Below are positions 7,935-32,123 of a stretch of 64,000 nt of DNA, one piece after another; the stretch's first letter is position 1; each line of letters starts with the position of its first letter. Origin of the DNA: Kibdelosporangium persicum (GTDB lineage: Bacteria; Actinomycetota; Actinomycetes; Mycobacteriales; Pseudonocardiaceae); NCBI RefSeq assembly GCF_013280595.1, contig NZ_JAAATY010000004.1:1-64000 (forward strand), read 5' to 3'. The translations under genes and the position numbers were made by a program. The notes below the pieces were generated by a model, which saw only the letters and a program-made list of their open reading frames with translations, did no database searches and was not told where the DNA came from.

Positions 7935-9355
7935 TGGCTACCCGGACGCGAACCAGGATCGCGGCGCTCACCGCCGCCGCGGGGCTGTTGCTGGCCCAGC
8001 CGGCCTTCGCGCAGCAGCAGAAACAGCCGCCACCGGCCTCCGGCCCCGTACCACCGAAGGTGGACGTGAACCGGCCGGTGATCACCGACACCGCGGCGCC
8101 GCCTGCCACCCCCGACTACGCGCTGAAGGGCGGGTGCATCGGCTCGCTGAGCAACGGCCAGTTCGCCCTGCCGAACAAGCCGTGGGGCCAGCAGCAGTTG
8201 CGGATCGAGGAAGCGCACGCGTTCGCCACCGGCAAGGGCCAGATGGTCGCGGTGATCGACACGGGTGTGCGTGAGCACAGGTACTTCGAAGGCCGCGTGG
8301 TCAAAGGGCCTGACTACGTCAACAAGAACCAGAACTCGTTGGAGGACTGCGACGGGCACGGCACCGAAGTAGCCGGGATCATCGCGGCGAACAGCCCGGA
8401 CCTGGGCAGGATCGGGTTCACCGGGGTGGCGCCGGACGCGAAGATCCTGGCGATCCGGCAGTCGAGCGAGCTCTACAAGGGCACGCCCGCGCCGACCCCG
8501 CAGGACCCCCGGCCGCAAGAGCAGTCGGCGGGTGACCTCAGGACGCTGGCGCAGGCGGTCCGGCACGCGGCGGACAACGACGAAGTCACCGTGATCAACA
8601 TGTCGGTGGACAACTGCCGTGAGGCGAAGTTCGCGATCTCCGAGCCGGAGAAGGACCTGCAGCGGGCGCTGCGGTACGCGGTGGACAACGACAAGGTCGT
8701 GGTGGCCTCCGCGGGCAACGTGGGGAAGAACTGCACGGACGCGAAGAACGGCCCGGACCCCAACCAGCCGACGCACATCGTGACTCCGCCGTGGTTCGCC
8801 GACGACGTGATCTCGGTGGCGGCGGTGAACCGCAACGGCAACCTGGCACCGTTCAGCGTGCAGGGCCCGTGGGTCAGTGTGGCGGCGCCGGGCACGGAGA
8901 TCATCTCGCTGGACCCGGGTGGCGAGCTGGCGAACCTGACCATCCAGGGCGACCAGCGGGTGCAGATCCAGGGCACGAGCTTCGCGGCGCCGTACGTCGC
9001 CGGGCTCGCGGCGCTGATCCGCGAACGCTTCCCGAACCTGACCGCCCGTCAGGTGATGAACCGGATCAAGATGACCGCACAGCACCCGGCGGCGCCCGGC
9101 GGCCGGGACAACCTGGTCGGCTACGGCATGATCAACCCGATCGCCGCGCTGACCGCGATGGTTCCGCCGGAGTTCGGCATCCCGGCCGACAAGGCGGAGA
9201 CCATGCCCGCGAGCATGCCGCCGATCCGGCCGAAGAACTGGACCCCGATAACTGTGGCGCTGATCGGCGCGGGCGGTGGCGTGGTCCTGTTGTTGCTGAC
9301 GCTGTTCGTCATGCACGCCGTCCGCCGCAACAAGGACGATCCCGCCGAATCCTGA
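7934..9355 (+). CDS. mycP: Mycosin, T7SS-associated subtilisin-like protease
   Basis: 473 residues. It has a signal peptide (about 1-25, ending AQPAFA), an N-terminal extension with QQLRIEEAHAFATGKGQMVA, an S8 protease domain, and a C-terminal membrane anchor (about 440-465) followed by a basic tail. The catalytic triad is visible: Asp in VIDTGV, His in DCDGHGTEVAGI and Ser in GTSFAAPYVAGL, with the oxyanion Asn in SAGNVG. Mycosins sit outside the membrane, cap and stabilise the ESX complex, and cleave some substrates. Coupled to eccD. No eccB follows; the gene ends at a long repeat region. Confidence 0.95.
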   Translation: MATRTRTRIAALTAAAGLLLAQPAFAQQQKQPPPASGPVPPKVDVNRPVITDTAAPPATPDYALKGGCIGSLSNGQFALPNKPWGQQQLRIEEAHAFATGKGQMVAVIDTGVREHRYFEGRVVKGPDYVNKNQNSLEDCDGHGTEVAGIIAANSPDLGRIGFTGVAPDAKILAIRQSSELYKGTPAPTPQDPRPQEQSAGDLRTLAQAVRHAADNDEVTVINMSVDNCREAKFAISEPEKDLQRALRYAVDNDKVVVASAGNVGKNCTDAKNGPDPNQPTHIVTPPWFADDVISVAAVNRNGNLAPFSVQGPWVSVAAPGTEIISLDPGGELANLTIQGDQRVQIQGTSFAAPYVAGLAALIRERFPNLTARQVMNRIKMTAQHPAAPGGRDNLVGYGMINPIAALTAMVPPEFGIPADKAETMPASMPPIRPKNWTPITVALIGAGGGVVLLLLTLFVMHAVRRNKDDPAES

Positions 9356-9358
9356 GAC

Positions 9359-9722
9359 GATGACCGCTGCACTCAGCATGCTGAATGCTGAGTGCAGCGT
9401 TGTCTGTTGTCCGGGAGGGTGAGCGTGGGTCCGGAGTGGGATGGCCGCTGTATTCCGCATGCTGAGTGTTGAGTGCAGCGTTGTCCGTTGTAGCAAGGGC
9501 GAGTTTGAGTCCGGAGTGGATGGCGGCTGCACTCAGCATGCTGAATGCTGAGTGCAGCGTTGTCTGTTGTCCGGAGGGTGAGCGTGGGTCCGGAGTGGAT
9601 GGCGGCTGCACTCAGCATGCTGAGTGTTGAGTGCAGCGTTGTCCGTTGTAGCAAGGGCGAACTTGAGTCCTGAGAGGATGGCCGCTGCACTTCGCATGCT
9701 GAGTGTTGAATGCTGAATGCAG
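9359..9722. repeat. 79-81-bp tandem repeat array with strong hairpins
   Basis: Four full units start at 9359, 9440, 9519 and 9598, and a partial one at 9677 (periods 81, 79, 79, 79). Units 1 and 3 share one tail variant (TGTCCGGAGGGTGAGCGTG type) and units 2 and 4 another (TGTAGCAAGGGCGA type), so a two-unit block of about 158 bp has itself been duplicated. Each unit holds a palindrome; in unit 1, CGCTGCACTCAGCAT pairs perfectly over 15 bp (9365-9379 with 9385-9399, loop GCTGA). All frames crossing it give low-complexity shadow peptides, so I call it non-coding. On the plus strand it follows mycP and could act as a transcript end. Confidence 0.9.
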
Positions 9723-10355
9723 GGCCGCCGGGAGGCTCAGTTCCCGCAGGACCGGGGAGTTGACCGACGCGCATGTGTCGACCTCGGTGGCTGGCGGGTC
9801 GGGCTGCTCGCTCGACGTCTCGGTGTACGTCTCGTGCCAGGACATGTGCTTCACCAGCACTTTGCGGAACGCCGCCTGAACTTCGTGTTCTGTATTCCCG
9901 AACTCCGTGTTCTGTATTCAGAGTGCAGGCATGGGAGACCGCCCAGCGGCTGTCCTGCGCTGCCCTGAACATTGAATTCAGAGTGCGGAATTCAGGATGG
10001 CCGACGTTCGCACCACCAGCGGCAAGGCGGGCGGAGCGGCAGACCAAGGCGGCTGAGCAAGGCACGCAGAAGGGCTGACCAAGGCGGGCAGAGGGGCTGA
10101 CCAAGGCGGGCAGAGCGGCTGAGGCAGAGGGGCTGAGCGAGGCGGCTGAGCAAGGTGGCAGAGAAAGCCTTGCGTCTCAATCTCTTGCGGGGATCGGCCT
10201 CCGACGGGGCCTCGCTGTGCCATCTGCTGGCGTGGCGGTGACCGTCGTTTTTATGCGTGCTGGTCGTTTCGACTGGGCGGAGTGCCGTCCAGTTGCGACA
10301 CGACTGCGACGCGGCGGAGACGGCGGGCTGACCTGAGGGCAGCACCGTCGGTGCC
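9723..10355. other. Gene-free stretch with further short tandem repeats
   Basis: No supported gene was found. The segment holds two copies of a 22-bp unit around GTGTTCTGTATTC (9878-9899 and 9900-9921), then a G-rich run where GGGCTGACCAAGGCGGGCAG occurs twice exactly (10072 and 10094) among looser relatives from about 10020 to 10170. The last 150 bases before the acyltransferase presumably contain its promoter, but I see no confident one. Confidence 0.7.
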
Positions 10356-16389: not shown

Positions 16390-18102
16390 ATGACGCTGCG
16401 CGTCGCCGTGGACTTCGGGACGTCCAGCACGTGTGTCGCCGTGTCGGTGAACGGCCGCGAACCACAGGTCGTCGCGATGGACGGGCGCCCGGTGCTGTCC
16501 TCGGCGGTGTACGCGTCGCCGGACGGCACGTTGTTCGTCGGCCTGGAAGCCGAGCGTCAGGCCGCGGTCGACCCGTCGCGTTACGAGCCCAATCCCAAGC
16601 GCCGCATCGACGAGCCGGAACTGCTCCTGGGCAACAGCGTGGTCCCGGTCAGGGAAGCCATCCGGGCCGTGCTCACGCGCGCGGTGCAGGAAGCACGCCG
16701 GTTCGCGGGCGGCGCGCCCGTGGACCAGTTGGTCCTGACGCATCCGGCTGACTGGGGCGGCATCCGCACCCGGGTCCTGCGTCAGGCGGCGAACGGGCTG
16801 TCCGAACGTATTTCCCTTGTGCCCGAACCAGTCGCGGCCGCGGTCTTCCACGCCGAGAACCTGTCGGGCCAGGGGGACACGATCGCGGTGCTCGACATCG
16901 GCGGCGGCACCGTCGACGTGAGCGTGGTCAGCCGGGCGGGCGCGCCGGGCCACGGTTTCCGTGTGCTGGCCACAAAAGGCGATCCGTCGTTCGGCGGCGC
17001 GGACGTCGATCAGGCGCTGCTGCAACACGTCGGCCGCCTGGTGTCCAACACGGACCCGGACGCGTGGCGGTCGCTGATCGAAGGCCGCGAGCTCGCCGAC
17101 CGCAGGCGCAGGCGCGTGGTGTCGCAGGATGTCCAGGGCGCCAAGGAAACCCTGTCGCGGCACACCTACACCGACGTGCCCATGCCGGTTCCGTTCGCCG
17201 ACGCGCATGTGACCCGCTCCGACCTCGAGCAGCTGATCGCGGCACCGCTCGGACGGGCGGTCGAGCTGACGGCCGCCGCGATCCGCGAGTCCGGTGTGCG
17301 GGCCAACCAGGTCTTCCTCGTCGGTGGTTCCAGCCGTATCCCGATGGTGGCCCGGATGGTGCACGAACGGATCGGGATCGTGCCGACCACGCTCGACCAG
17401 CCGGAGACCGTCGTCGCCCGTGGGGCGCTGAAAGCGGTTCCCGGCGAGCCGGTTCCGACCGTCCGGGTCACGCCGGTGCAGCCGCCACCACGTCCGCTGC
17501 CTCCGCCACCGCCACCACAGCAGTTCGTGCCTCCTCCACCACCTCCTGCCCCTCCCAAGCGCGGTAAGACGCCGTGGGTCATCACGGGCGGCGCCGCTGT
17601 GGTGGTGGCCGTGGTGGTCGTCGTCCTCGTGCTGACGTCAGGCGGAACTCCACCGGCGCCTCCGCCGCCGTCCGGCCGCACGATCGCCCAGTTCGACTAC
17701 GAGTTCACGATGCCGCCTGACTGGAAGCAGGTCGCGTCGGACACCACGTACCGCGAGGTCCGGGTGAAGCCCGAGGGTGCGGAACAGGGGCTGGACACGA
17801 TCATCGTCCAGGAGCTGGCGCTGGCCTTCGACCCGGCGGCGGACCGGGAACGCGCGGTCGGCGGGCTGCGCCAGCAGTACGAGAAGTCGAACCTCAGGCT
17901 GTCCGGCCTGAACGAAAACGGCCGGTTCGCCGACCGGGACGTGGTCTCCTACCGCCAGGAGGTCGACAACGCGACCGTCGAGTGGTTCGTGCTGTTCGAC
18001 AAGCGAGCCCAGGTCAGCGTGGGGTGCGAGTACACCCGGAGCGGCCGTGACCGGGTGATGGCGGCCTGCGACCAGGTGGTCCGCACGATGAAGGTGAAGT
18101 AG
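16390..18102 (+). CDS. Hsp70-like T7SS-associated membrane protein (Rv3446c type)
   Basis: 570 residues. Residues 1-355 form an actin/Hsp70-type ATPase: phosphate-1 loop VAVDFGTSSTCVAV, phosphate-2 loop VLDIGGGTVDVSVV near 168, and adenosine motif FLVGGSSRIPMV near 312. The peptide-binding domain of DnaK is absent. In its place are a proline-rich linker (about 365-390), one membrane helix (about 396-418) and an outer domain beginning FDYEFTMPPDWKQV, which matches the T7SS-associated Rv3446c family. It lies next to the Esx genes as in the mycobacterial ESX-4 locus. The likely role is coupling nucleotide state inside to substrate or complex handling outside (inference). Confidence 0.85.
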   Translation: MTLRVAVDFGTSSTCVAVSVNGREPQVVAMDGRPVLSSAVYASPDGTLFVGLEAERQAAVDPSRYEPNPKRRIDEPELLLGNSVVPVREAIRAVLTRAVQEARRFAGGAPVDQLVLTHPADWGGIRTRVLRQAANGLSERISLVPEPVAAAVFHAENLSGQGDTIAVLDIGGGTVDVSVVSRAGAPGHGFRVLATKGDPSFGGADVDQALLQHVGRLVSNTDPDAWRSLIEGRELADRRRRRVVSQDVQGAKETLSRHTYTDVPMPVPFADAHVTRSDLEQLIAAPLGRAVELTAAAIRESGVRANQVFLVGGSSRIPMVARMVHERIGIVPTTLDQPETVVARGALKAVPGEPVPTVRVTPVQPPPRPLPPPPPPQQFVPPPPPPAPPKRGKTPWVITGGAAVVVAVVVVVLVLTSGGTPPAPPPPSGRTIAQFDYEFTMPPDWKQVASDTTYREVRVKPEGAEQGLDTIIVQELALAFDPAADRERAVGGLRQQYEKSNLRLSGLNENGRFADRDVVSYRQEVDNATVEWFVLFDKRAQVSVGCEYTRSGRDRVMAACDQVVRTMKVK

Positions 18103-18363
18103 ATGACGCAGAGCTTCGACGACGCGGTGGCCAAGTTCTCCGGTGAGGTCGAGGACGCGGTGAGCCGGGCCCGCCGGGCCGCGGCCGAGGCCCGCGACCT
18201 CACCGCCCGGTTCCGCGAGGAGACCCGCGAAGGGGCGGCCGAGAGCGGGGACGAGGAGCCGGAGGCGGCCCAGGTTCCCCCGTCGACGGATGAGGACGAC
18301 GATTTTTCACAAGAGCAAATCATGACCCGCGACCAGCGGTCCAATCGGCATAACCGCAGGTGA
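18103..18363 (+). CDS. Small acidic protein of the ESX-4 locus, unknown function
   Basis: 86 residues. The ATG follows the stop of the Hsp70-like gene directly, so it is in the same operon. The N-terminal 45 residues are predicted helical and coiled (SFDDAVAKFSGEVEDAVSRA, ARDLTARFREE); the rest is acidic and disordered (EESGDEEPE, STDEDDD) with a basic end. No known domain. Confidence 0.7.
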   Translation: MTQSFDDAVAKFSGEVEDAVSRARRAAAEARDLTARFREETREGAAESGDEEPEAAQVPPSTDEDDDFSQEQIMTRDQRSNRHNRR

Positions 18364-18549
18364 GAATGAGGTTTGCGGCATTCGCATTCGCACCGTCATA
18401 GCCCGGTTCCCGGTGCGTGCGTTTACAAGAGCAACGACCTGGAGAAGTTCTGCGGACAAGGGGGAACCAAAGCTGGCAAGGTCTGCGTCGGAAGGGTTGT
18501 ACGGACAAAGAACGTGCAACCAGAACTTCGACGAAGGGGGCAACTCCCA

Positions 18550-18861
18550 ATGTCAGGCTACGTAATCACGCCGGAGATGCTGCAGAAGGCATCGCAGGAC
18601 ACCGCCAACGTCCGGGAGAACTCGCAGGCCCACATCGCGCAGCTGCGGAACAACCTCGCGCAGCTCGAGGGTGCCTGGAAGGGCGAGGCCTCGGTGGCGT
18701 TCCACTCGCTGGTCCAGCGCTTCAACACCGCCGCCGAGAAGGTCCTGCAGGACCTGCAGACCATCAGCGAGAGCCTGATGACCGCGGCCAAGAACTACGG
18801 CCTGCAGGAAGAGCAGGCGTCGCAGGCCTTCAAGTCCCAAGAGGGCAACTTCGCGTTCTGA
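18550..18861 (+). CDS. WXG100 protein, EsxA/EsxU-like
   Basis: 103 residues with a helix-turn-helix hairpin and the turn motif W43-K-G45 (GAWKGEAS). Near the end is the secretion signal Y-x-x-x-E (YGLQE, Tyr83 to Glu87), read by the EccC ATPase. Such proteins leave the cell as dimers with a partner; the partner is the next gene. GAAGGGGG lies about 10 bases before the ATG. The 186-bp gap upstream suggests its own promoter. Confidence 0.93.
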   Translation: MSGYVITPEMLQKASQDTANVRENSQAHIAQLRNNLAQLEGAWKGEASVAFHSLVQRFNTAAEKVLQDLQTISESLMTAAKNYGLQEEQASQAFKSQEGNFAF

Positions 18862-18920
18862 CAGCCCCGCAGACTTCATTTCCGCAGTAGCACAGAACTT
18901 TTGTTTGGGAGGAATTTCAA

Positions 18921-19214
18921 ATGCCTAACGGTGAGATCAAGGTAGAATTCGCGGCCGTCGAGGCCGCAGGCGCCCAGATCAAGGGAACCGCCAGCAAGAT
19001 GGACCAGGAGCTCGACACGCTGCGCAGCCAGCTGGCCCCGCTCGAGGCGGCCTACACCGGTGCCGCCAAGGAGGCCTGGCACCAGGTCCAGACGAGCTGG
19101 AACAACGCGCAGAACGAGCTGAACCAGGTCCTCGCGCAGATCGGTGCCGCGACCACCCAGGCCGCCTCCGACTACCAGAGCACCGAGTCCGGCGTCGCGA
19201 AGCTGTGGGGCTGA
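18921..19214 (+). CDS. WXG100 protein, EsxB/EsxT-like, with YTG in place of WXG
   Basis: 97 residues, two amphipathic helices. The turn reads Y45-T-G47 (LEAAYTGAAKEAW) where most members have Trp. The C-terminal export motif is present as YQSTE (Tyr85 to Glu89). Ribosome site GGGAGGAA seven bases before the ATG. It is the expected dimer partner of the upstream WXG100 protein, and is followed by a strong terminator. Confidence 0.9.
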   Translation: MPNGEIKVEFAAVEAAGAQIKGTASKMDQELDTLRSQLAPLEAAYTGAAKEAWHQVQTSWNNAQNELNQVLAQIGAATTQAASDYQSTESGVAKLWG

Positions 19215-21418: not shown

Positions 21419-22753
21419 TTGAGCCGGTTGTTCGGCACGGACGGCGTGCGTGGGCTGGCGAACGTCGACCTGACACCGGAACTGGCGCTGGCGGTGTCCG
21501 CGTCGGCGGCCCGCGTGCTGGCTGAGCACGACCGTTCGCACCGCCCGGTCGCGGTGGTCGGGCGGGACCCCCGGGCCAGCGGTGAGATGTTGCAGGCGGC
21601 GGTGGCCGCCGGCCTGGCGTCCGCGGGCGCGGACGTGCTGCAGGTGGACGTGGTGCCGACGCCGGGCGTGGCGTACCTGGTCGACAACCTCGGTGCCGAC
21701 CTCGGCGTGATGATCTCCGCCTCGCACAACCCCATGCCGGACAACGGCATCAAGCTCTTCGCGGCCGGCGGGCACAAACTGCCGGACGACGTCGAGGACG
21801 AGATCGAAGCCGGGATCGACGCGAAGCCGCAGCGGCCGACCGGCGCGGGCGTCGGCCGGATCTACACCGTGCCGGACGCGCTGGACCGCTACATCGAGCA
21901 CCTGCTGAAGGCGACCCCGCAGCGCCTCGACGGCCTGAAGATCGTCGTCGACTGCGCGAACGGCGCCGCCTGGGCCGCCGCCCCCCGCGCGTACCGCGAG
22001 GCAGGCGCCGAGGTGATCGCGATCCACGCGTTGCCGGACGGCGAGAACATCAACGACAACTGTGGTTCGACCCACATCGACGCGCTGTGCGAGGCCGTCG
22101 TCGCCGAGGGCGCGGCACTGGGCGTCGCGCACGACGGCGACGCCGACCGTTGCCTGATGGTGGACGCCCAGGGCAACCTGGTGGACGGCGACCAGATCAT
22201 GGCCGTGCTCGCCCTGGCGATGAAGGACCGCGGCGAGCTCGTGGACAACACGCTGGTCGCGACCGTGATGAGCAACCTGGGGCTGCACCTGGCGATGCGC
22301 GATGCCGGTGTGAAGATCCGCACAACGGCCGTCGGCGACCGCTACGTGCTGGAGGAGCTGCGTAACGGCGGCTACTCCCTGGGCGGCGAGCAGTCCGGTC
22401 ACGTTCTGCTGCCGAGCCACGCGACCACCGGCGACGGCCTGCTGACCGCGATGGGCGTCATGGCGCGTGTCGCTGCGACTGGCAAGTCACTCGCCGAGCT
22501 GGCCGGTGTGATGCGGCGCCTGCCGCAGGTGCTCGTGAACGTGAAGGTGGCGGACAAGGCGGCGGTGGCCAACGCCTCGTCGGTCAGCGACGCCGTGGCG
22601 CAGGTCGAGGCCGAACTGGGCGACAGCGGCCGCGTGCTGCTGCGTCCGTCGGGCACCGAGCAGCTCATCCGGGTGATGGTCGAAGCGACCAGCGAAGCGG
22701 CGGCGGAAGCCGCGGCGAACCGTCTGGCCGGAGTGGTCTCGGCAGTCTCCTGA
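21419..22753 (+). CDS. glmM: Phosphoglucosamine mutase
   Basis: 444 residues. Converts glucosamine-6-phosphate to glucosamine-1-phosphate for UDP-GlcNAc and peptidoglycan. Motifs: FGTDGVRG at the N-terminus, the phospho-serine loop [16 protein letters not shown], the metal loop [13 protein letters not shown], sugar loop GGEQSGH, and phosphate loop [14 protein letters not shown]. The start is TTG at 21419, nine bases after GGGAGG, giving the standard N-terminus MSRLFGTDG. Confidence 0.97.
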
Positions 22754-22943: not shown

Positions 22944-23537
22944 ATGACGTACGGTCCGCCGCCCAACCAGGGCTGGCAGCAACCGCCGCCGCCACCACCC
23001 GGCTGGGGCCCGCCGATCAGGGGTCCCCGGAAACCGCCACTGCCAGGCCTTGTCGTCACGTTAGGCATCCTGGCGATCGTCTTCGGCTTGTTGTCCGGTG
23101 GTGTGCAAGGGCCCGCGGACATCACCGCATTCGTGATCAAGGTGCTGGTGGGCCTGATGGCCCTGGTCGGCGGAATCATGGTGCTGAACCGGGCACGGGC
23201 CGGTGCGGTCCTGCTGACGATTTCCGGTGGGCTGAACACTCTCGTCTTCGCGCTGTCGTTCTTCACCTCGCTCGGACGGGCACCTCGCTTCACCAGACTC
23301 TTCTCGCTCTTCAACGACGGTCTTCCGCTGCTGCATGCCCTCCTGGGCATCGCCGTGCTCGTGCTGTCCTTGTTGCCGCAGGTGACCAAGGCCTTGAGCC
23401 AGCCCGGCCCGCCGCGTCCACCGGGACCGCCGCCAGGTCCGCCTCCCGGCTACGGGCCGCAGCAGCCTCCCGGATTCGGTCCACATCCCGGCCATGGACC
23501 GCCATTCCAGCAGCCACCACCGCCTTCTCGGCGGTAA
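22944..23537 (+). CDS. Proline-rich membrane protein, unknown function
   Basis: 197 residues. N-terminal tail rich in Pro/Gly/Gln, then about four membrane helices (LPGLVVTLGILAIVFGLL, VIKVLVGLMALVGGIMVL, GAVLLTISGGLNTLVFAL, LLHALLGIAVLVLSLLP) and a C-terminal proline-glycine tail. The start is well supported by GGAGGTGA five bases before the ATG. It precedes the T7SS cassettes, and proline-rich membrane proteins are common in such loci, but a link is inference. Upstream, 22754-22943 contains no gene I can support. Confidence 0.72.
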   Translation: MTYGPPPNQGWQQPPPPPPGWGPPIRGPRKPPLPGLVVTLGILAIVFGLLSGGVQGPADITAFVIKVLVGLMALVGGIMVLNRARAGAVLLTISGGLNTLVFALSFFTSLGRAPRFTRLFSLFNDGLPLLHALLGIAVLVLSLLPQVTKALSQPGPPRPPGPPPGPPPGYGPQQPPGFGPHPGHGPPFQQPPPPSRR

Positions 23538-23665: not shown

Positions 23666-23989
23666 ATGCCGGACGGCAAAGCCGACGTCAAGATGAATCC
23701 CGAGGAACTGAAGGCCCTGGTTCCCCAGATGCAGGACATCAGCCTCGGCCTCAGCCGGCTGGTCACGCACATCAAGGACGCGAAGGCTCAGCCCAACCAC
23801 TTCGGCCGGACGAACAACGCCGCCGCCGCGGGCAACTTCGTGCGGCAGAGCGTCGACACGCTGGCGGGGTCGGTCACCCAGGCCCAGCAGTACGCCGCCT
23901 CGCTGGTCACCGCGCTGCAGCAGTCGGTCGGGATGACGACGGAGACCGAGCAGCAGAACAAGCAGTCCTTCCACAACCAGGCGGTGTGA
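23666..23989 (+). CDS. Small EspC/WXG-like helical protein (cassette A, gene 1)
   Basis: 107 residues, helical throughout, with the turn HFGRTNNAAAAGNF and then QSVDTLAGSVTQAQQYAASL. This resembles the EspC/DUF2580 class of T7SS partner proteins (FG followed by a Gly-containing helix start) but has no Trp. AAGGGGGAG precedes the ATG. It is followed four bases later by the large cassette protein, and its counterpart in cassette B is the gene at 26814. In M. tuberculosis the position between glmM and glmS holds Rv3440c, of similar size (memory). Confidence 0.7.
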   Translation: MPDGKADVKMNPEELKALVPQMQDISLGLSRLVTHIKDAKAQPNHFGRTNNAAAAGNFVRQSVDTLAGSVTQAQQYAASLVTALQQSVGMTTETEQQNKQSFHNQAV

Positions 23990-23993
23990 GCAC

Positions 23994-26246
23994 ATGGCAC
24001 TTCGTGGTGTTCAGGACTCCGCCGACGACCTGCTGAAGCCGCCTGAGGTCGATCAGACCACCGCGCGCAAGATGATCGACGACGCGATCGCGCGGTGGAA
24101 CAAGGAGCTGTCGAGCGGCAGCGGCAACGGGGAGCTCTACAAGCGCTGGCAGCACCACCCGGTCTCGGGCAACCGGTTCATGAAGGAGCCCTGCTGGGGC
24201 GACCACAAAGACCAGCCCGAAGGCGAGCTGCTGGAGAAGCTCAAGGCGATCGAGTTCGGGCCCATCCTGGAGACCGCCCGGCGGCTGACCGACTCGGCCA
24301 CCTTCACCGGCGACGTCCAGGAGGCGCTGAAGAACGTCTCCGCCCGGGTGGCCGACAACTGGCAGGACAACAACGGCCAGACCGCGGTCGACAAGATCAA
24401 CGCACTGGCCACCGCCTCGACGAAGTTCCAGGACACGGCCAACCGGTTCGCCACGAACCTGGCCGGGTTCGCCAACGAGTCCCGCAAGTGCATCCAGCGC
24501 CTGGTCGACTTCGCCGGCCGGGAGAGCGATCAGTACTTCAACTACCTGGGCGATGACAACCACGTCGACATCGACCACTTCGCCGAGGCCATTGACGAGA
24601 TCGACGAGTCCCTGCAGAAGGGCCACACCGATGGTCCGATCTGGCAGCAGGTCCCGTACAACCTGGAGATCGCGCGGAGCAACACGCCCGGTCTGATCAT
24701 CTGGCAGAACTTCGAAACCTGGTACTCCGACGTCGAAAAGGGACGCCTGGACACGTTCTGCGAGAACTACACCAACGCCGTCGGGACGTTCCGCAAGCTG
24801 ATCCGGGAATGCCACGACACGATCGACCGGCACCTGCAGAACCTGATGGACTCCTCGGCAGGGCTGGGTTTCACCCCGTTCGCCAACCTCGACGAGCTCG
24901 CCAAGGGCGGTGGCGACCAGCCGAAGGACCCGCCGCCCAAGGAGGAACCACCGAAGGAGAAGGAGCCGCCACCGGCCGAGAAGAAGAACGGTGGCGGCGG
25001 TCCCGTCGACTCGGGCGGCCCGCCTCCTGGCTCGGGTGGTCCGCCTCCGGGCAGCACCCCGCCGCCGCCCCCGCCACCTCCGCCGCCCTCGACGGACGAC
25101 CCGAAGGCGGTCGACCCGAACGCCCCCGGCACCACCGATCCGAGTGACGTGCCCGGCGCGCCGGTCGACGGCGGACCGGGCACGAACACCGGCGGTGAGA
25201 CGGTCACCATCGAAGACGGTGGCAAGAAGATCTCGGTGACCAGCCCGGACAGCGAGGGCCACGTCAAGGTGACCGTCGACGACGGCACCGGCCAGCCGAA
25301 GACCTACGACATGGACTTCAGCCAGCCGACGGGCCAGCAGCCGGGCATCGGCACACCGGGCGCGGGAACCCCGGGTGCTCCGGGCACGTCAACGCCGGGC
25401 CAGCAGGAGCCGGTGCAGTTCGGCCCGGACGGCCAGCCGGTGCAGACGATGCCCGCGCCTGCCGGAGGCGACCCGGCTGCCGAGACGCTGACGCCCGGTC
25501 CGGACGGCAAGATCGTCCTGGAGGACGGCAACGTCACCATCACCGCCGAGCACCCGCCGGGCCAGCCCGACGTGGTCCTGCTGACGGTCGACGACGGCAC
25601 CGGCGACCCGACGACGTACACGCTGGACTACAGCGACCCGGCCAACCCGCAGGTCGACCAGCCCGAGCCGGCCGCCGCGCGGCAGGACGTCCAGGCCGAG
25701 CGTCAGGTCGCGCAGGCGCAGGGCTTCGCCGGCCCGTTGGGCGCCGACGCGCGTCCGGACTTCGCTGGCGCGGTCGCGAGTGCGACCCCAGGCGTTGCCG
25801 AGGCGCCCTTCGGCGGGACGCCGAACGGAATGCCGCCGGAGGCTCTCGCCGGTTCGGACCAGCCGGTGCAGACGACCAGCACCCAGGCGGTGGGCGGCGA
25901 CTTCGGCGGTGGTTCCGGCGACGGCGGTTTCTCGGACTCGTCCTGGTCCACCCAGGGCGACCTGCTGTCCGGTGGGGACGACGACTACAACCAGGTCGCG
26001 CCCGCCGCGGGTGAGGCCGGGCTGGCCGCGATCCCGGAGGGCGGCCAGCAGGCCAATCCGAACCAGGCTGGTGGCGCCGGCATGGGCGGTATGCCGATGA
26101 TGGGTGGCATGGGTGGCGGCGGTGCCGGTGGTGGCGATTCCGAGCGCAGCGGCGGACAGTGGTCGGTGACGGGTGACCTGTTCGCCGACGACGATCTCAG
26201 CGAGCCCGCCCGGATCGCCGGTGTTCTCGACGAAGACGTCAGATAA
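23994..26246 (+). CDS. Large T7SS-substrate-like protein (cassette A, gene 2)
   Basis: 750 residues. Residues 1-300 are helical and WXG/PPE-like, with GELYKRWQHHP (47-55), IEFGPILETARRL, and a widened turn W123-QDNN-G128. Then come a proline/glycine-rich linker (about 305-400) and two copies of a short beta module: VTVDDGTGQPKTYDMDF near 425 and LTVDDGTGDPTTYTLDY near 530. A Gly/Met-rich tail follows, with WSTQGDLLSGGDDD and, at the very end, QWSVTGDLFADDD. It is a clear paralogue of the 486-residue protein at 27136. Probably exported or cell-surface (inference). The M. tuberculosis equivalent by position is Rv3439c. Confidence 0.72.
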   Translation: MALRGVQDSADDLLKPPEVDQTTARKMIDDAIARWNKELSSGSGNGELYKRWQHHPVSGNRFMKEPCWGDHKDQPEGELLEKLKAIEFGPILETARRLTDSATFTGDVQEALKNVSARVADNWQDNNGQTAVDKINALATASTKFQDTANRFATNLAGFANESRKCIQRLVDFAGRESDQYFNYLGDDNHVDIDHFAEAIDEIDESLQKGHTDGPIWQQVPYNLEIARSNTPGLIIWQNFETWYSDVEKGRLDTFCENYTNAVGTFRKLIRECHDTIDRHLQNLMDSSAGLGFTPFANLDELAKGGGDQPKDPPPKEEPPKEKEPPPAEKKNGGGGPVDSGGPPPGSGGPPPGSTPPPPPPPPPPSTDDPKAVDPNAPGTTDPSDVPGAPVDGGPGTNTGGETVTIEDGGKKISVTSPDSEGHVKVTVDDGTGQPKTYDMDFSQPTGQQPGIGTPGAGTPGAPGTSTPGQQEPVQFGPDGQPVQTMPAPAGGDPAAETLTPGPDGKIVLEDGNVTITAEHPPGQPDVVLLTVDDGTGDPTTYTLDYSDPANPQVDQPEPAAARQDVQAERQVAQAQGFAGPLGADARPDFAGAVASATPGVAEAPFGGTPNGMPPEALAGSDQPVQTTSTQAVGGDFGGGSGDGGFSDSSWSTQGDLLSGGDDDYNQVAPAAGEAGLAAIPEGGQQANPNQAGGAGMGGMPMMGGMGGGGAGGGDSERSGGQWSVTGDLFADDDLSEPARIAGVLDEDVR

Positions 26247-26258
26247 GGGAGTCCGTGC

Positions 26259-26792
26259 GTGTTCGAGATCGACTACTCCGATCCTGAGGTACGCCGCATC
26301 CTCGCCCAGTACGAGGACGTGACGGCCCAGTTCGAGTCGACGGCCGACGAGATCACCGTGGCGTACCACGAGCAGGCCGCGAAGATCGAGGAAGAGCACC
26401 AGGCCCGGATCGAGGAGAACCGCGAGTTCTACGAGCGGCTCGAGCAGGAGAAGCAGCAGCAGGACCAACAGCCTCCGTCGCCGTGGACCGCGCCGCAGCG
26501 GGAGACCGTGATGTCCTTCGGCGAGTTCGAGGACGAGCAACCCAAGCCGGACGCCTGGTCGACGCCGACGCCGCCGATGGGATTCCCGCCCGCGCCGCCG
26601 ATCCCCGAACCGGTGCCGGAGGCGGAGGCGATCCGGTCGCCCGCGCCGGAGCCGGTGATGTCGTTCGGCGGTTTCGACGACGACGATCCCGCGCCTCCCG
26701 TCCGGCAGCCGCCGCAGACCGGCGGCGGTGGCAGGCGGCGCGCACGGGACGAGGACGACGAGGACATGTCTGGGCAGAGCTGGCTGCGCTGA
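26259..26792 (+). CDS. Coiled-coil protein with C-terminal SWLR tail (cassette A, gene 3)
   Basis: 177 residues. Residues 1-70 form an acidic coiled coil (TADEITVAYHEQAAKIEEEH, EENREFYERLEQEKQQQ). The rest is disordered, with two copies of VMSFG-[EG]-F-[ED]-D-[ED]. It ends SGQSWLR. The gene closing cassette B is shorter but ends similarly (YSNTWMQNR), so this is a matching third member. GTG start after AAGGGAG. Confidence 0.65.
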   Translation: MFEIDYSDPEVRRILAQYEDVTAQFESTADEITVAYHEQAAKIEEEHQARIEENREFYERLEQEKQQQDQQPPSPWTAPQRETVMSFGEFEDEQPKPDAWSTPTPPMGFPPAPPIPEPVPEAEAIRSPAPEPVMSFGGFDDDDPAPPVRQPPQTGGGGRRRARDEDDEDMSGQSWLR

Positions 26793-26813
26793 AGGGCGTA
26801 GAGGGGGCGACTC

Positions 26814-27149
26814 ATGACTGGGCGCAAGGACAGGCTTGAGGTCAACACCGAGCTTGTCGCCGCGATCAGCAAGGAGATGGCCGAGTTCGGCGCCGCGTTG
26901 AGCACGGCGCGGGAGTACGCGCACGCGGACAACGGGTTGACCGCGGACAAGTTCGGCACGATCGCGGCGCGCACAGGCGTTGGTCAGACGTACACGCGAT
27001 TACGGGAGACCCTGCGCGGCGTGCTGGACAAGGCGGCCCCGACGGTGGATGCCTTGGCCGAGGCGCTCGCCAAGGCGAAGGAGCGGACCGCCGAGGCGGA
27101 CGCCGAGGTGGCCGCGCGGATAGCGAGGGCCGGCGATGGCCTCCGATGA
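26814..27149 (+). CDS. Small EspC/WXG-like helical protein (cassette B, gene 1)
   Basis: 111 residues, all helical: VNTELVAAISKEMAEFGAAL, then TADKFGTIAARTGVGQTYTR and a long Ala/Glu helix. The KFG turn matches the HFG turn of the cassette A protein. The start has GGGGGCGA upstream. Its 3' end overlaps the large gene by 14 bases, so it is translated together with it. Confidence 0.7.
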   Translation: MTGRKDRLEVNTELVAAISKEMAEFGAALSTAREYAHADNGLTADKFGTIAARTGVGQTYTRLRETLRGVLDKAAPTVDALAEALAKAKERTAEADAEVAARIARAGDGLR

Positions 27150-28596
27150 CATCGTCGCCTCGCTGAAACCGGTCTCCGGCAAGGACATCGACTCGACCAC
27201 CGAACTGCTCGACACGTTCATGTGGTTCCGGGACAACCTGTCCACCCGCACCGGCCGGTTCGGTGAGCTCTACCAACGCTGGAACGGCCATCCCGCCAGC
27301 AGGATGGGCGCCCGCGGGTGGTCGGCCCGGCCGTGGAATCCGGACGACGACCGGATGATCGACGACCTCGGTGGCATCGACTTCGGGCCGATGCTCGGCG
27401 ACGTCGAGCGGTTCGGCAACCTGCGTGCGGCGTCGGACGAGATGCACGGCACCGTGAAGTCGATCCGCGACCGGTTGACCGACGCGTGGTCCGGGCCCGC
27501 GGCGGACGTCGCGGTGGAGAAACTCGACCAGCTCGGCAAGGCCTCCTTGACGTTCCGGGACACGCTCAACCAGTTCGCGGCCGCACTGGACGCGGCCAGG
27601 ACGACGACCAAGGACGCCGTCACCGAGCTGAGAACCGCCGTGCGGGGCCAGATCAAGCGGTTCGACCTGTCCGAGGGCGTCGACGTGCGCCGTCAGCAGG
27701 TGGATCGGCTCGACATCGCCATGGCCGGTGGGCCACCGTTCGGTCGTCCGTACACAGTGGAGGAACTGACCCGTCCGTCCACTGTGGATCTCAATCGGGG
27801 CGGGGTCGGCCAGTGGTGGAGCAACGAGACGATCAACGCGCTGGATGCCATGTGCGACAGCTACTTCAACGCGGTCACCTCGCTGCGCAAGCTCGTCGGG
27901 GAGACCACGACGGCGATCGCCAACTCGTGGACGGCCCTCGACGAAGCCCTGAAACGCATTCAGGCGACCGCCGACCTCGATCCGTACGGCAGGATCACGC
28001 CCTCGGCGGCGGCCGCCGCACCGCGGATCGGCATCCACGCGCAGTCCGCTGACCGGGTCGGTGTCACGGTCGACGGCAAGCGGTACGAGATGGACTTCGG
28101 CCGCCCCGAACCCACCGCGCCCCCGGCGCCTGCCCCGCCGCCACCGGCGGCGGCGGCGGTCAACCCGGCCATGGGCGGCGGACCGTCGCCGAGTGGCGGA
28201 GGCTTCCCGGGTGGCGGCGCTGGTGGCGCGGGCGGAGGCGGTGGCGGAGGCGGGCCGTCGAACGTCGGCGCCGCGACGGAATCGCCGTTGCCGCCGGGCG
28301 CGATGGCAGGCGTGCAGACGCCGACGGCCACGGACACCCCCGAGGGAAGGCCGGCTGGTCCGGTCGGGGCCGCGCCCGCCGGGCCTCCCGGTGGCGCCGC
28401 TCCGATGGGCGCCATGCCGATGGGCGCGATGGGAGCCATGGGCGGCGGTGGTCAGCAGGGCAGCGGTGACCAGGACCGGCAGAGCAAGTGGCGTACCCAG
28501 GGCGACCTGTTCGACGACGCCGTGGACCCGGCTGTGCCCATGGTGATCGGCGACGACGACCCGTACGGCCCCTTCAGCCCGAAGGGACAACAATGA
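27136..28596 (+). CDS. Large T7SS-substrate-like protein (cassette B, gene 2)
   Basis: 486 residues, paralogue of the 750-residue protein: GELYQRWNGHP (44-52), IDFGPMLGDVERF, and a canonical turn W118-S-G120 (LTDAWSGPAADVAVEKL). Helical to about 290. It has one beta module VGVTVDGKRYEMDF (two in cassette A), then a Pro/Gly/Met-rich tail and KWRTQGDLFDDAVD near the end, matching the GDLF tails of cassette A. Secretion by the nearby ESX system is inference from the architecture. Confidence 0.72.
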   Translation: MASDDIVASLKPVSGKDIDSTTELLDTFMWFRDNLSTRTGRFGELYQRWNGHPASRMGARGWSARPWNPDDDRMIDDLGGIDFGPMLGDVERFGNLRAASDEMHGTVKSIRDRLTDAWSGPAADVAVEKLDQLGKASLTFRDTLNQFAAALDAARTTTKDAVTELRTAVRGQIKRFDLSEGVDVRRQQVDRLDIAMAGGPPFGRPYTVEELTRPSTVDLNRGGVGQWWSNETINALDAMCDSYFNAVTSLRKLVGETTTAIANSWTALDEALKRIQATADLDPYGRITPSAAAAAPRIGIHAQSADRVGVTVDGKRYEMDFGRPEPTAPPAPAPPPPAAAAVNPAMGGGPSPSGGGFPGGGAGGAGGGGGGGGPSNVGAATESPLPPGAMAGVQTPTATDTPEGRPAGPVGAAPAGPPGGAAPMGAMPMGAMGAMGGGGQQGSGDQDRQSKWRTQGDLFDDAVDPAVPMVIGDDDPYGPFSPKGQQ

Positions 28597-28889
28597 TCGA
28601 CGAGTCCGACCCCGCGGTCATGGCCACGCGAGCCCAGTTCGCCGAGATCTCCGCACGGCACCGTGCCGGTGTCGCGCAGTCCCTCGCCGAGTACCAGCAG
28701 GTCGAGGCGGCCAACAAGGCGTACCGGGACGAGGTCGCGCGCCGTGAGGCCGAACAGGCCGCTGCTCAGCGGACACCCGAGCCGCAGCAGAAGAACCCGT
28801 GGCTCAGCCGCCGGGCCGCGCCACGGTCCGAGGACAGCGACGGCGACGAGACCGGCTACTACTCAAACACCTGGATGCAGAACCGGTGA
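28593..28889 (+). CDS. Short helical protein with C-terminal TWMQNR tail (cassette B, gene 3)
   Basis: 98 residues. The ATG overlaps the stop of the large gene (ATGA). Residues 1-60 are a coiled helix (AEISARHRAGVAQSLAEYQQ, YRDEVARREAEQAA), followed by a polar tail ending YSNTWMQNR. Equivalent in position, build and tail to the 177-residue protein of cassette A. The 3' end overlaps the converging hydrolase gene by 27 bases. Confidence 0.65.
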   Translation: MIDESDPAVMATRAQFAEISARHRAGVAQSLAEYQQVEAANKAYRDEVARREAEQAAAQRTPEPQQKNPWLSRRAAPRSEDSDGDETGYYSNTWMQNR

Positions 28890-29672
28890 CTGCTGGATCA
28901 CGGCGCCCTTGACGTCGTTGTCCAGCAGTTCGTCGAACTTGTCCGTGCCGGTCAGGTGCTTGAGGAAAAACGCGGTCAGCAGCGCGCGGGAGATCCGTTG
29001 GGTCCGGCGTTCGCCCTTGCCCGGCAACAGGAACTGGCTCCAGTGCCGACCTTCGGTGAACCCGAGGTGCCCGGCTTTGGGCAGCTCACGGACCTGCACC
29101 GGCCCGGCCCACGCGCGGGCGATCTTGTCGGCGTTGGCCACCGCGGGCGCGACCAGGTCGAGCCCGGCGGTCACGTGCAGTCCGGGCATCCGGCAGTGCC
29201 GGGCGGCCTCCACGGCGGACGGCCGGGCTTCGGCTGCGGCCAGCGTCGCCACGGCACGGACCCGGGGGTCCTCGGCGGCGGCCAGCACGGCAGCGCCTCC
29301 GCCGAAACAGTGCCCGGCGAGACCCAGCCGATCGGGTGAAATACTGACCTGTCCGTCGCCGAGCCGTACGCTCACGCACGTCTGCAACGCGGTCCGCAGA
29401 TCGGCCGCGAACAGCCGGTGCGACCCGAGCGGCCCCTGGTGGGTGCTCGGCGCGGCCACGACGATGCCGTACGTGGCCAGGTGACGCATCAGACCGTGGT
29501 AGCGCAGCGGCGGCTGTAGCCAGCCATGGCCGAACGCGATCGCCGGCAGATCCCGCCCTGACCTGGGCGTGAAGAGCACGCCTGGCTGCCCGGCCAGGCC
29601 GAGGTCACCCCGCAGTACCGCGTGCGGGCCGGGAAGTGCCAGCTCGTAGGCCAGCTGCTTGGCGCGTGCCAT
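28863..29672 (-). CDS. Dienelactone-hydrolase-like alpha/beta hydrolase
   Basis: 269 residues, cytoplasmic. Nucleophile elbow GLAGHCFGGGAAV with Cys in the serine position, as in dienelactone hydrolases; acidic residue in TAGLDLVAP; His in LPKAGHLGF. FGHGW likely forms the oxyanion hole. Substrate unknown. It sits between the T7SS cassettes and glmS on the opposite strand; a conserved hydrolase-like gene at this place in mycobacteria (Rv3438) is remembered but was not checked. Confidence 0.8.
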   Translation of the reverse strand: MARAKQLAYELALPGPHAVLRGDLGLAGQPGVLFTPRSGRDLPAIAFGHGWLQPPLRYHGLMRHLATYGIVVAAPSTHQGPLGSHRLFAADLRTALQTCVSVRLGDGQVSISPDRLGLAGHCFGGGAAVLAAAEDPRVRAVATLAAAEARPSAVEAARHCRMPGLHVTAGLDLVAPAVANADKIARAWAGPVQVRELPKAGHLGFTEGRHWSQFLLPGKGERRTQRISRALLTAFFLKHLTGTDKFDELLDNDVKGAVIQQSPVLHPGV

Positions 29673-29737: not shown

Positions 29738-31576
29738 GTGTGCGGAATCGTGGGATACGTAGGACACCGGTCGGCGTTGACTGTCGTCCTCGATGGACTC
29801 AGGCGCCTGGAGTACCGCGGCTACGACTCGGCCGGGGTCGCGGTGATCACCGGGAACGGCCTGGCCGTCGAGCGGAAGGCCGGCCGGCTGGCCAACCTGG
29901 AGGCCGAACTCGCCGGACGGGACGGGTTCGTGGGCACCGCCGGGATGGGGCACACGCGCTGGGCGACGCACGGCGCCCCCATCGACCGCAACTCCCACCC
30001 GCACCGCGATGTGACCGGCAAGGTCGCGGTGGTGCACAACGGCATCATCGAGAACTTCCACGCGCTGCGGCTGGAGCTCGAAGCCGAGGGCGTCGAGTTC
30101 ACGAGCGACACCGACACCGAGACCGCCGCGCACCTGATCGCGCGCTCGTACGCCGGTGACCTGCCCGCCGCGGTGCGGGAGGTGTGCCGTCGCCTGGAAG
30201 GCGCGTTCACGCTGGTCGTGACACACGCGGACCAGCCGGACATGGTCGTCGCGGCCCGCCGTTCGTCGCCGCTGGTCGTCGGCATCGGCGAAGGGGAGAT
30301 GTTCCTCGCCTCCGACGTGTCCGCGTTCATCGAGCACACCCGGGAAGCCGTGGAGCTCGGCCAGGACCAGGTCGTGGCGATCACGCGGGACGGCTACGAC
30401 GTGACCGGCTTCGCCGGCGAACCGGCGCCGGCCAAGCACTTCAGGGTCAACTGGGACCTGTCGGCCGCGGAGAAGGGCGGCCACGACTACTTCATGCTCA
30501 AGGAGATCGAGGAGCAGCCGGAGGCGCTCGCGAACACGTTGCGCGGGCACTTCGTGGACGGCCGGATCGTGCTGGACGAGCAGCGGATGGCCGACCAGGA
30601 CCTGCGGGAGGTCGACAAGGTCTTCGTGGTCGCGTGCGGCACGGCGTACCACTCCGGCCTGGTGGCCAAGTACGCGATCGAGCACTGGACCCGGCTGCCC
30701 GTGGAGGTCGAGCTGGCCAGCGAGTTCCGTTACCGCGACCCGGTGCTCGACCGGGACACGCTGGTCGTCGCGATCTCCCAGTCGGGTGAAACCGCGGACA
30801 CGCTCGAAGCCGTCCGGCACGCGCGTGGGCAGAAAGCCCGCGTCCTGGCGATCTGCAACACCAACGGCGCGCAGATCCCGCGTGAGTCCGACGCCGTGCT
30901 GTACACGCACGCCGGCCCGGAGGTCGGTGTCGCCGCGACCAAGACGTTCCTTGCCCAGATCGCCGCGAACTACATGGTGGGCCTGGCTTTGGCGCAGGCA
31001 CGCGGGACGAAGTACAACGACGAGGTGGCGCGCGAGTTCCGTGAACTCGAGCGGATGCCCTCGGCCGTCAGCCAGGTCCTGCGGACGGTCGGCAGGGTGC
31101 GGGCGCTGGGCCGTCAGCTCGCGGATTCCAAGGCAGTGCTGTTCCTGGGGCGGCACGTGGGCTACCCGGTCGCCCTCGAAGGCGCGCTGAAACTCAAGGA
31201 ACTGGCGTACATGCACGCCGAGGGCTTCGCCGCGGGCGAGCTCAAGCACGGCCCGATCGCGCTGATCGAACCGGACCTGCCGGTCGTGGTGGTCATGCCG
31301 TCACCGAAGGGCCGGGCCGTCCTGCACGCCAAGCTCGTGTCCAACATCAGCGAGATCCAGGCACGCGGCGCACGCACGATCGTCATCGCGGAAGAGGGCG
31401 ACGAGACCGTCCTGCCGTTCGCGGACGAGCTGATCGAGGTTCCTCAGGTGCCGACCTTGTTGCAGCCTTTAGTGTCCACCGTGCCGTTGCAGGTGCTCGC
31501 CGCGGAGATCGCCTGCGCACGCGGCTATGACGTCGACAAGCCCCGCAATCTGGCCAAGTCGGTCACGGTTGAGTAG
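29738..31576 (+). CDS. glmS: Glutamine-fructose-6-phosphate aminotransferase
   Basis: 612 residues, full length. Makes glucosamine-6-phosphate from fructose-6-phosphate and glutamine, the first step to UDP-GlcNAc. The N-terminal glutaminase has the catalytic Cys directly after the start (CGIVGYVGH), with GMGHTRWATHG and HNGIIENF. Two SIS isomerase domains follow, with SQSGETADT, CNTNGAQIPRESD and the C-terminal KPRNLAKSVTVE. GTG start at 29738. No ribozyme leader is evident in the 65 bases upstream. Confidence 0.98.
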   Translation: MCGIVGYVGHRSALTVVLDGLRRLEYRGYDSAGVAVITGNGLAVERKAGRLANLEAELAGRDGFVGTAGMGHTRWATHGAPIDRNSHPHRDVTGKVAVVHNGIIENFHALRLELEAEGVEFTSDTDTETAAHLIARSYAGDLPAAVREVCRRLEGAFTLVVTHADQPDMVVAARRSSPLVVGIGEGEMFLASDVSAFIEHTREAVELGQDQVVAITRDGYDVTGFAGEPAPAKHFRVNWDLSAAEKGGHDYFMLKEIEEQPEALANTLRGHFVDGRIVLDEQRMADQDLREVDKVFVVACGTAYHSGLVAKYAIEHWTRLPVEVELASEFRYRDPVLDRDTLVVAISQSGETADTLEAVRHARGQKARVLAICNTNGAQIPRESDAVLYTHAGPEVGVAATKTFLAQIAANYMVGLALAQARGTKYNDEVAREFRELERMPSAVSQVLRTVGRVRALGRQLADSKAVLFLGRHVGYPVALEGALKLKELAYMHAEGFAAGELKHGPIALIEPDLPVVVVMPSPKGRAVLHAKLVSNISEIQARGARTIVIAEEGDETVLPFADELIEVPQVPTLLQPLVSTVPLQVLAAEIACARGYDVDKPRNLAKSVTVE

Positions 31577-32123
31577 AACGCTCCGCCGTCAGCTTCTCCG
31601 CAGTCGCATGTGCCGCACGCTCGTCGTGGTCGTGCGGATCGCTCACCGACAGTCCCGGTGAGACCTCCGTACCCGCGACGGGCCCTGCGGACTGCTGCAG
31701 TGTGTGCGTCAGTTCGTGGGCGAGCGTGTGATAGCCCTCGCTCGAACTCGGGTTGTACACGCCACTGTTGAAGAAGACGTCCTGGCCGGTCGTGAACGCC
31801 CGCGCGCCGAGCTCGTTGGAGAGGTTGGCCGCGGCGGAATCCGTGTGCAGCCGCACGTCACCCAAGGACTGCCCGAGACCGCTTTCCATCTGGGTCCGCA
31901 GCTGCGCGGGCAGCGGGCTGCCGCCACCGAGCTGACCACGAATCCGGTCGGCGACGTCATCACCCGGCAGGCCTTGCGACTCGCCTTCGACGAGCCTCGC
32001 GACCATCTGGTTGCCGCCGGCCAGAATCGCACTGGTGGCGTCGTCCCGCGCCGGCTCCGGCGTGGCGTGCGCCCGCGGCCGTTCGCTCACCGGCTCCTCG
32101 GCGCGGATACGGTCAGGCTCCAT
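31563..32123 (-). CDS. eCIS-core (DUF4157) protein with HExxH motif
   Basis: 186 residues. The core DUF4157 pattern is clear: LGQSLGDVRLHTDSAAANLS, GARAFTTGQDVFFNSGVYNP, and YHTLAHELTHTLQQ with a zinc-protease HELTH at 136-140. The family is linked to extracellular contractile injection systems and their toxins, but no phage-tail-like genes are in this window. The last residues overlap the glmS 3' end by 14 bases. It is preceded four bases upstream by a small gene on the same strand, so the two form an operon. Confidence 0.88.
   Translation of the reverse strand: MEPDRIRAEEPVSERPRAHATPEPARDDATSAILAGGNQMVARLVEGESQGLPGDDVADRIRGQLGGGSPLPAQLRTQMESGLGQSLGDVRLHTDSAAANLSNELGARAFTTGQDVFFNSGVYNPSSSEGYHTLAHELTHTLQQSAGPVAGTEVSPGLSVSDPHDHDERAAHATAEKLTAERSTQP

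Follow-up and report, generated by a model that had tools for sequence, protein, structure and literature searches.

Joint exchange of the front parts of three-gene, type VII secretion-like cassettes between glmM and glmS in Kibdelosporangium and related Pseudonocardiaceae

Genes of the glmM-glmS interval

A stretch of 64,000 nucleotides from Kibdelosporangium persicum (contig NZ_JAAATY010000004.1, positions 1 to 64,000; the whole stretch is called the window below) carries, between the genes glmM and glmS, two tandem three-gene cassettes, A and B, whose products resemble proteins of the type VII secretion system (T7SS). Comparison with related genomes revealed that gene 1, the front (or head) of gene 2 and the front of gene 3 have been jointly replaced in Kibdelosporangium, with the rear parts of genes 2 and 3 retained. 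The six open reading frames (ORFs) and their order in two cassettes had been described in an earlier note made from the sequence alone, and an ORF check on the + strand bore out their presence and their sizes.

Cassette A starts with A1 (gene 1; 23666-23989, +), a 107-residue EspC/WXG100-like small helical partner that belongs to the exchanged head module. A2 (gene 2; 23994-26246, +; 750 residues) has a head of WXG-type helical character (residues 1-310; 23994-24923), which is exchanged between species and is of type I in the window, and a tail from residue 402 to the end (25197-26243) with two beta-type repeats, a Gly/Met-rich stretch and the end DSERSGGQWSVTGDLF, which is conserved throughout the genus. 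A3 (gene 3; 26259-26792, +; 177 residues, GTG start) likewise consists of a coiled head (residues 1-75; 26259-26483), exchanged with A1 and the A2 head, and a conserved tail (26484-26789) with terminal DEDDEDMSGQSWLR. In cassette B the same order is kept by B1 (26814-27149, +; 111 residues), modelled as a helical hairpin, B2 (27136-28596, +; 486 residues), with one beta-type repeat and the tail KWRTQGDLF...PMVIGDDD, and B3 (28593-28889, +; 98 residues), whose degenerate end DETGYYSNTWMQNR falls outside the strict gene 3 motif described below. The gaps between genes are 4, 12 and 21 bases and the overlaps are 14 (B1/B2) and 4 (B2/B3), so the six genes are likely to form one operon.

The cassettes are flanked on the left by glmM (21419-22753, +), used here as the species marker, and on the right by a dienelactone-hydrolase-like gene on the strand opposite to the cassettes (28863-29672, -), with glmS beyond it (29738-31576, +). 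A small Pro-rich membrane-like gene (22944-23537) also lies within the glmM-glmS interval.

Both motifs that had been noted as common to the large proteins, GELYxRWxxHP and I[ED]FGP[IM]L, were seen in A2 and B2. The WXG turn ascribed to both was found in B2, where the invariant W is followed as WSG, but A2 has WQD at this place (W123). The letters KPPEVD occur near the start of A2; a Pfam scan gave no match to PPE (PF00823) in A2 or B2.

Distribution and duplication of the cassettes

The gene glmM was present in all 150 Pseudonocardiaceae genomes surveyed, and the comparison was based on 101 loci, made up of 100 glmM-glmS intervals and that of K. philippinense (102 loci with the window). Eighty of the 101 were chosen by glmM alone and 20 as matches of B2, with L060 coming from a search with A2; L061, whose genome is identical to that of L100, was dropped before counting. 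K. aridum (G128) and K. banguiense (G144) were both grouped in the window's genus. A gene 2-type large protein was found in every one of the 101 comparison loci, in 98 through a tail profile and in three by eye; L053, L138 and L155 were put into the large-protein set by hand because their tails scored under the tail profile, and L136 is truncated by the end of its contig. One cassette is present in 73 of the 102 loci, two in 25 and three in 4.

Gene 1 stands beside 131 of the 135 large proteins, a count made before a crude filter discarded 13 of these picks, at least one (L150) wrongly; among the 118 kept, at least one wrong pick (L047_4735) was retained. Gene 3 stands beside 125 of the 135 across the Pseudonocardiaceae, in 113 cases with an end of the acidic W-L type. 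The earlier note's view of the third gene as lineage-specific is not supported, as gene 3 is family-wide and two loci from other families have it too, L174 and, with weaker evidence, L183; a local novelty is thereby ruled out, and the absence of gene 3 from Mycobacterium-like loci looks like the exception.

Across the order, 67 of the 199 genomes searched held a match to the gene 2 profile at 1e-6. Outside the family, L170, L175, L178, L182 and L183 have a gene 1-gene 2 pair flanked by glmM and the hydrolase gene, and L171 has such a pair after glmM, with its right flank outside the view; these six loci we take to be from Mycobacteriaceae. The Mycobacterium-like gene 2 forms are without the WRTxGxLF tail, and gene 3 is missing from most such loci. 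In L173 and L174, from another family, the neighbours of the cassette are eccC and genes of EspC-like and WXG100 type; the L174 cassette also has a gene 3, with the end DDDDEQPSHWLT.

Gene 2 relatives were also seen away from glmM (L179, L180 and L181, from G104, G025 and G052), that of L179 having the usual tail and being followed by a gene 3-like ORF; these three loci are possible donors of heads. Another gene 3-like ORF, with the end DDEDLSAQRWMR, lies right after glmM in L048 (6765-7277), with no gene 2 before it and a B-type cassette next.

Duplication followed by divergence, as had been suggested for the two cassettes, stands for the large proteins. BLASTP aligned A2 and B2 at 28% identity over 279 columns (E 4e-22), and a whole-genome search with B2 found A2 at 2.2e-20; judging from this similarity they are paralogues. 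The small genes are less alike, A1 against B1 giving an E of 0.15, below significance, and A3 against B3 an E of 0.003 over 35 residues only, so that the case for their paralogy is made by gene order and family alignments. The B heads form a single clade of 12 (support 92), to which Kibdelosporangium contributes seven (the window's among them), the genus g43 four and g28 one. A second cassette was found in seven of the eight Kibdelosporangium genomes, in four of the six g43 loci and in one g28 locus. By this distribution cassette B is a lineage-limited additional copy, and the doubling is confined to certain lineages, as had been supposed.

Exchange of heads within Kibdelosporangium

Between the window and the Kibdelosporangium genome G063 (locus L039), identity is 95% for glmM, 84% for B1, 79% for B2 and 80% for B3. 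The fronts of cassette A stand apart, with 24% for A1, mostly 15-30% over the first ~320 alignment columns of A2 and 22% for the front of A3, and identity returns to 81-91% in the last part of A2 and 76-94% in that of A3. In the closest pair, K. aridum and G063, glmM is 96% identical at the nucleotide level with a synonymous divergence (dS) of 0.14, and dS is 0.09 in B1 and 0.25 in the A3 tail, against nonsynonymous divergences (dN) of 0.91 for A1 and, for the heads of A2 and A3, 0.99 and 0.84. Sliding nucleotide identity of this pair dips twice, to ~47-52% across A1 together with the A2 head and to 50% across the A3 head; outside these troughs it is 84-97%, save for a graded 63-80% return within A2 and, ahead of A1, a gap.

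Tree tests gave the same division, using groups that were chosen after inspection of the data. The tree of the flanks unites K. aridum and G063 (97/98) and rejects the head-type clade (p 1.3e-5), whereas that of A1 and the A2 head places G063 with G091 and G026 (100/100) and rejects K. aridum with G063 (p 3e-43), as does that of the A3 head (100/100; p 1e-8). Gene 1, the head of gene 2 and the front of gene 3 have thus been replaced jointly in this genus. Although G063 and K. aridum carry different heads, the eccC of each is 95% identical to that of the window; the exchange therefore does not track that secretion machine, and a swapping of heads to match different EccC proteins is unsupported. 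The small protein of the ESX-4 locus lies outside the exchange as well, since between G063 and the window it keeps 80% identity while the A3 head is dissimilar.

Exchange across the family

Of 263 comparisons with glmM identity of at least 86%, 131 were retained in which glmM was at least 90% and the gene 2 tail at least 60% identical. Their heads fell into 34 low (<40%), 13 middle and 84 high (at least 60%) cases, with few intermediates. In the low class the median identities were 27.5% for the head (25-33), 23.9% for gene 1 (19-33, n=32) and 24.6% for the first 70 residues of gene 3 (13-38, n=28), beside 76.7% for the gene 2 tail (61-92) and 67.1% for the last 45 residues of gene 3 (51-98); in the high class gene 1 stood at 86.3% (66-100, n=69) and the gene 3 front at 84.3% (56-100, n=73). 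Wherever all parts were measured, low heads came with low gene 1 and gene 3 fronts and with tails and gene 3 ends kept (28 of 28). Head identity correlated with that of gene 1 (Spearman 0.93, n=112) and the gene 3 front (0.91, n=114), as compared with 0.52 for the gene 3 end and 0.49 for glmM. The low pairs come from g1 (13), g8 (11), g16 (4), g21 (3), g31 (2) and g20 (1), the 28 with all three parts measured being those of g1, g8, g21 and g20. For 18 of these 34 low pairs neither locus has more than a single cassette, so a mix-up of copies is impossible there.

Single linkage at 45% divided 135 heads into 36 types, and on the glmM tree of 73 single-cassette loci 23 head types need at least 28 changes. 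Six loci each from g21 and g8 were compared between genera. They group by genus in glmM (100/100) and the gene 2 tail (99/97), where a head-type grouping is rejected (p 1e-174 and 3e-8), and by head type in the head, gene 1 and the gene 3 front (100, 100 and 98), where a grouping by genus is rejected (p 5e-7, 9e-4 and 0.015). The same two head types therefore segregate in both genera; the mean identity of one type across genera is 42% (29-59) and that of different types 28% (23-32), ranges that touch. No account of such head exchange was found in the limited collection of literature searched.

T7SS features of gene 1 and the gene 2 head

That the proteins are of T7SS type had been proposed from the sequence, and profile searches agree. 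Against the PDB, a profile of 68 gene 1 sequences reached EsxA (5.5e-8), CFP-10 (6.5e-6) and PE25 (3.2e-4), and the head columns of the gene 2 profile reached Thermomonospora EsxA/EsxB (2.7e-7), EsxA (3.7e-5) and CFP-10 (8.9e-5). Pfam matched EspC and WXG100 in 10 of 68 gene 1 sequences each, and WXG100 in 34 of 69 heads; PPE was matched by one of the 69 heads at E 0.001. A YxxxD/E motif lies within the last 36 residues of 80 of the 118 kept gene 1 sequences. The Ig-like family Big_9 matches 4 of 69 large proteins, possibly reflecting the beta-type repeats of gene 2, and no toxin family was matched in the Pfam scans of the window proteins and heads.

The helical hairpin that had been predicted appears in the AlphaFold2 model of B1, with helices at 12-38 and 44-109, a break at 55, a mean local confidence (pLDDT) of 79 and a predicted template-modelling score (pTM) of 0.52. 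Together with the profile matches, it suggests that the small partner is a hairpin of WXG100/EspC/PE type; the WXG100 matches, the invariant W and the PDB profile matches argue for a WXG-type helical front of the large partner.

The gene 3 motif and the ESX-4 locus

An ESX-4-type core lies in the window ~10-20 kb from the cassettes, with eccC for an FtsK/SpoIIIE ATPase (2354-6349, -), eccD (6510-7934, +) and a mycP-type subtilase (7931-9355, +); no eccB was seen in this locus (2354-9355). Farther on in the locus there are a gene for an Hsp70-like protein with a transmembrane segment (16390-18102, +), which we take to be of the Rv3446c type, a small protein of 86 residues (18103-18363, +) and a WXG100-type gene pair (18514-19214, +; 18514-18861 and 18921-19214), the second of which is above the Pfam WXG100 cut-off.

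The 86-residue protein carries an acidic C-terminal motif of the gene 3 type, DEDDDFSQEQIM. In its strict form, DDDxFSxxxWL, the motif is present in 77 of 113 gene 3 ends, the rest, including B3, being degenerate, and it stands near the end of the ESX-4 small protein in 19 of the 21 loci where that protein was found, the window's own among them, in a search of 100 genomes. As a control, the remaining ORFs in the comparison loci were scanned; 10 of these 3,117 had the strict motif, and by eye they were six ESX-4 small proteins and four gene 3s overlooked by the finder. Within the window, a check of every ORF on either strand that has 60 codons or more and high G+C at third codon positions found it in the 18103-18363 gene and A3 only. 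Alignment of the two families by hhalign paired 19 motif columns (probability 95%, E 2.9e-8) and was confined to the motif, the fronts not being aligned. By these comparisons gene 3 and the ESX-4 small protein have a C-terminal motif in common. This motif and the cassette that sits within an ESX locus in L173 and L174 uphold the link to ESX-4 suggested earlier. The limited literature collection held no account of the motif.

Pfam gave five families for gene 3, each in one of 51 members at E 0.00055 or worse, and these were taken as noise. The gene 3 end (26748-26789) loosely resembles that of the organism's own FtsZ (L184; DDEVDVPPFMRR, DDPDDEVDVPPFMRR) in its acidic run followed by hydrophobic, aromatic-hydrophobic and Arg positions; mimicry of the FtsZ tail was considered and the resemblance kept as a loose likeness. 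In the ESX-4 small protein of G028 (L194, about 1474-2004) the acidic FSQ motif is present twice.

Other features of the window

The stretch after mycP (9373-10065) probably contains a DNA repeat array, since similar peptides, such as TTDNAALSIQHAECS, recur in its minus-strand ORFs. A protein encoded at 31563-32123 (-) has a HELTHTLQQ-type motif, presumably that of DUF4157 proteins, and a transposase-like ORF at the window's edge (47-1132, +) is presumably of the IS630 type.

A proposed cargo complex with an exchangeable front

The reading favoured here, with a probability of roughly 0.55, is that each cassette encodes a T7SS cargo complex, most likely for ESX-4, together with a cognate adaptor, gene 3, that would dock through its constant tail. 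Gene 1 would be the small helical partner that forms, with the WXG-type head of gene 2, a helical bundle read by the secretion ATPase, and the long gene 2 tail, which is Gly/Pro/Met-rich, contains beta-type repeats and has WRTxGxLF as its constant end, would travel along with it. The variable coiled front of gene 3 would bind its own gene 1-head bundle, and the constant DDDxFSxxxWL end would dock on a T7SS-linked partner that the ESX-4 small protein also binds. The three fronts would be replaced jointly by recombination because they must fit each other, and the tails retained because they meet constant partners; cassette B would be an old duplicate.

Several results weigh against this reading or parts of it. 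None of the window's six proteins is individually above a Pfam or NCBIfam cut-off, and NCBIfam gave nothing useful besides a sub-threshold WXG100 match of B2. The PDB profile lists include coiled-coil designs and unrelated chains at comparable E-values, and Foldseek with the B1 model returned nothing at E 0.001 or below (best 0.52), with CFP-10, PE25 and EsxA appearing by TM-score (0.64-0.71) only. A1 and B1 themselves are without YxxxD/E at the usual place, with Thr for Tyr, as are 36 of the 116 other kept gene 1 sequences. The sole eccB match of the genome is on another contig (G000:C30:1846-3381), beside another EspC-like/WXG pair. As to the exchange, the A2 tail of K. aridum and G063 is not wholly unaffected, its dS being 0.52 against 0.14 in glmM, and breakpoints may therefore fall inside it; the tail tree neither unites nor rejects this pair (p 0.35), and the head-type grouping is not firmly rejected by the tail data (p 0.08). 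The family comparisons share genomes and are thus non-independent.

An unlikely alternative is a polymorphic effector with immunity, in which the variable head acts on neighbouring cells while gene 3 (or gene 1) shields the producing cell, hence the joint exchange. It would suit the exchange of several parts at once and the many head types, some of them shared between genera; the variable part is, however, a WXG-type helical region in place of a catalytic domain, and Pfam found no toxin family. Gene 3, moreover, changes in its front alone and ends like a protein of the ESX-4 locus, which would be odd for an immunity protein.

Somewhat less probable again is an intracellular or envelope regulatory complex instead of a secreted cargo, as suggested for Rv3439c (Ppr2) of M. 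tuberculosis, which we take from its position to be the orthologue of gene 2. A review passage reports that Ppr2 bound the PDZ domain of the site-2 protease Rip1 in a yeast two-hybrid assay (PMC6963305). Relatives between glmM and the hydrolase gene outside the family would also fit, as might the loose likeness of the gene 3 end to that of FtsZ. The ESX-type partner, YxxxD/E in most relatives and the ESX locus context argue the other way, as does the lack of the WRTxGxLF tail in Mycobacterium-like forms.

The version of the earlier note, two duplicated ESX-4 substrate or surface cassettes with a local doubling and third gene and with no allelic exchange, is quite improbable as a whole; its duplication and T7SS features were confirmed, but the third gene is family-wide and the exchange pattern would be left unaccounted for. 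That heads simply evolve fast under weak constraint, with constrained tails and no exchange, is very improbable and can be set aside: within one type the dN/dS of heads is indeed above that of glmM (for example, window against K. philippinense, dN 0.20, dS 0.54), but a dN of ~0.9 in all three fronts at a glmM dS of 0.14, the scarcity of intermediates, the strongly supported tree conflicts, the recurrence of types in two genera and the two sharp identity troughs rule it out.

To our knowledge, little is known of ESX-4 cargo outside mycobacteria. If the cassettes do encode such cargo complexes, a helical end that varies in step with its partners, opposite a constant far end, would amount to a natural domain-swap experiment on partner fit in T7SS, and the common DDDxFSxxxWL end predicts one docking site linked to ESX-4. 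The many old head types at the glmM-glmS slot suggest selection for diversity from outside the cell. A more speculative and doubtful extension is an identity system, in which exported heads and their cognate partners serve as strain-specific markers, or change to escape phages or rivals that use the heads. Balancing selection would then keep many old head types, traded between species and genera at one chromosomal slot, and gene 3 would be a plug-in adaptor giving every new head access to the same ESX-4 machine.

Comparison with known systems

Within the same genome, the second T7SS pair on contig C30 (L003/L005) resembles the cassettes: its EspC-like gene, which has YKSGD, neighbours one for a large protein that contains a Met/Gly-rich stretch and closes with PPVIGEEDD, comparable to the PMVIGDDD of B2; it differs in adjoining the only eccB found, and the gene 3 motif was not seen in the ends fetched. 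Rv3440c-Rv3439c of M. tuberculosis, which presumably lie between glmM and glmS, are comparable in that gene 1 and gene 2 occupy the same place in related genomes, but most loci of that type are without gene 3 and have a different tail. Ppr2, unlike the cassettes, is described in the review passage as a partner of the Rip1 PDZ domain (PMC6963305).

The PE/PPE and EspC-type ESX pairs of mycobacteria share with the cassettes a small helical partner and a larger protein with a WXG-type front and a Gly/Pro-rich tail; the gene 1 profile reaches PE25 and CFP-10, and YxxxD/E is present in most gene 1 relatives. The cassettes differ in the near absence of Pfam PPE matches, in the third gene with its acidic W-L end and in having the front, not the tail, as the variable part.

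The LXG toxins with their Lap partners and TslA with TlaA1 and TlaA2 are likewise large substrates with two small cognate helical partners and polymorphism between strains; in the passages of the source that describe them, the polymorphism resides in the toxin domain, the helical targeting domain being shared (PMC10730906). An LXG/Lap system has a variable C-terminal toxin domain and an adjacent immunity gene, whereas the C-terminus of gene 2 is conserved and matched no toxin family in the Pfam scans. Set against those passages (PMC10730906), the cassettes vary at the opposite end, in the helical head and its partners, and keep the other end constant.

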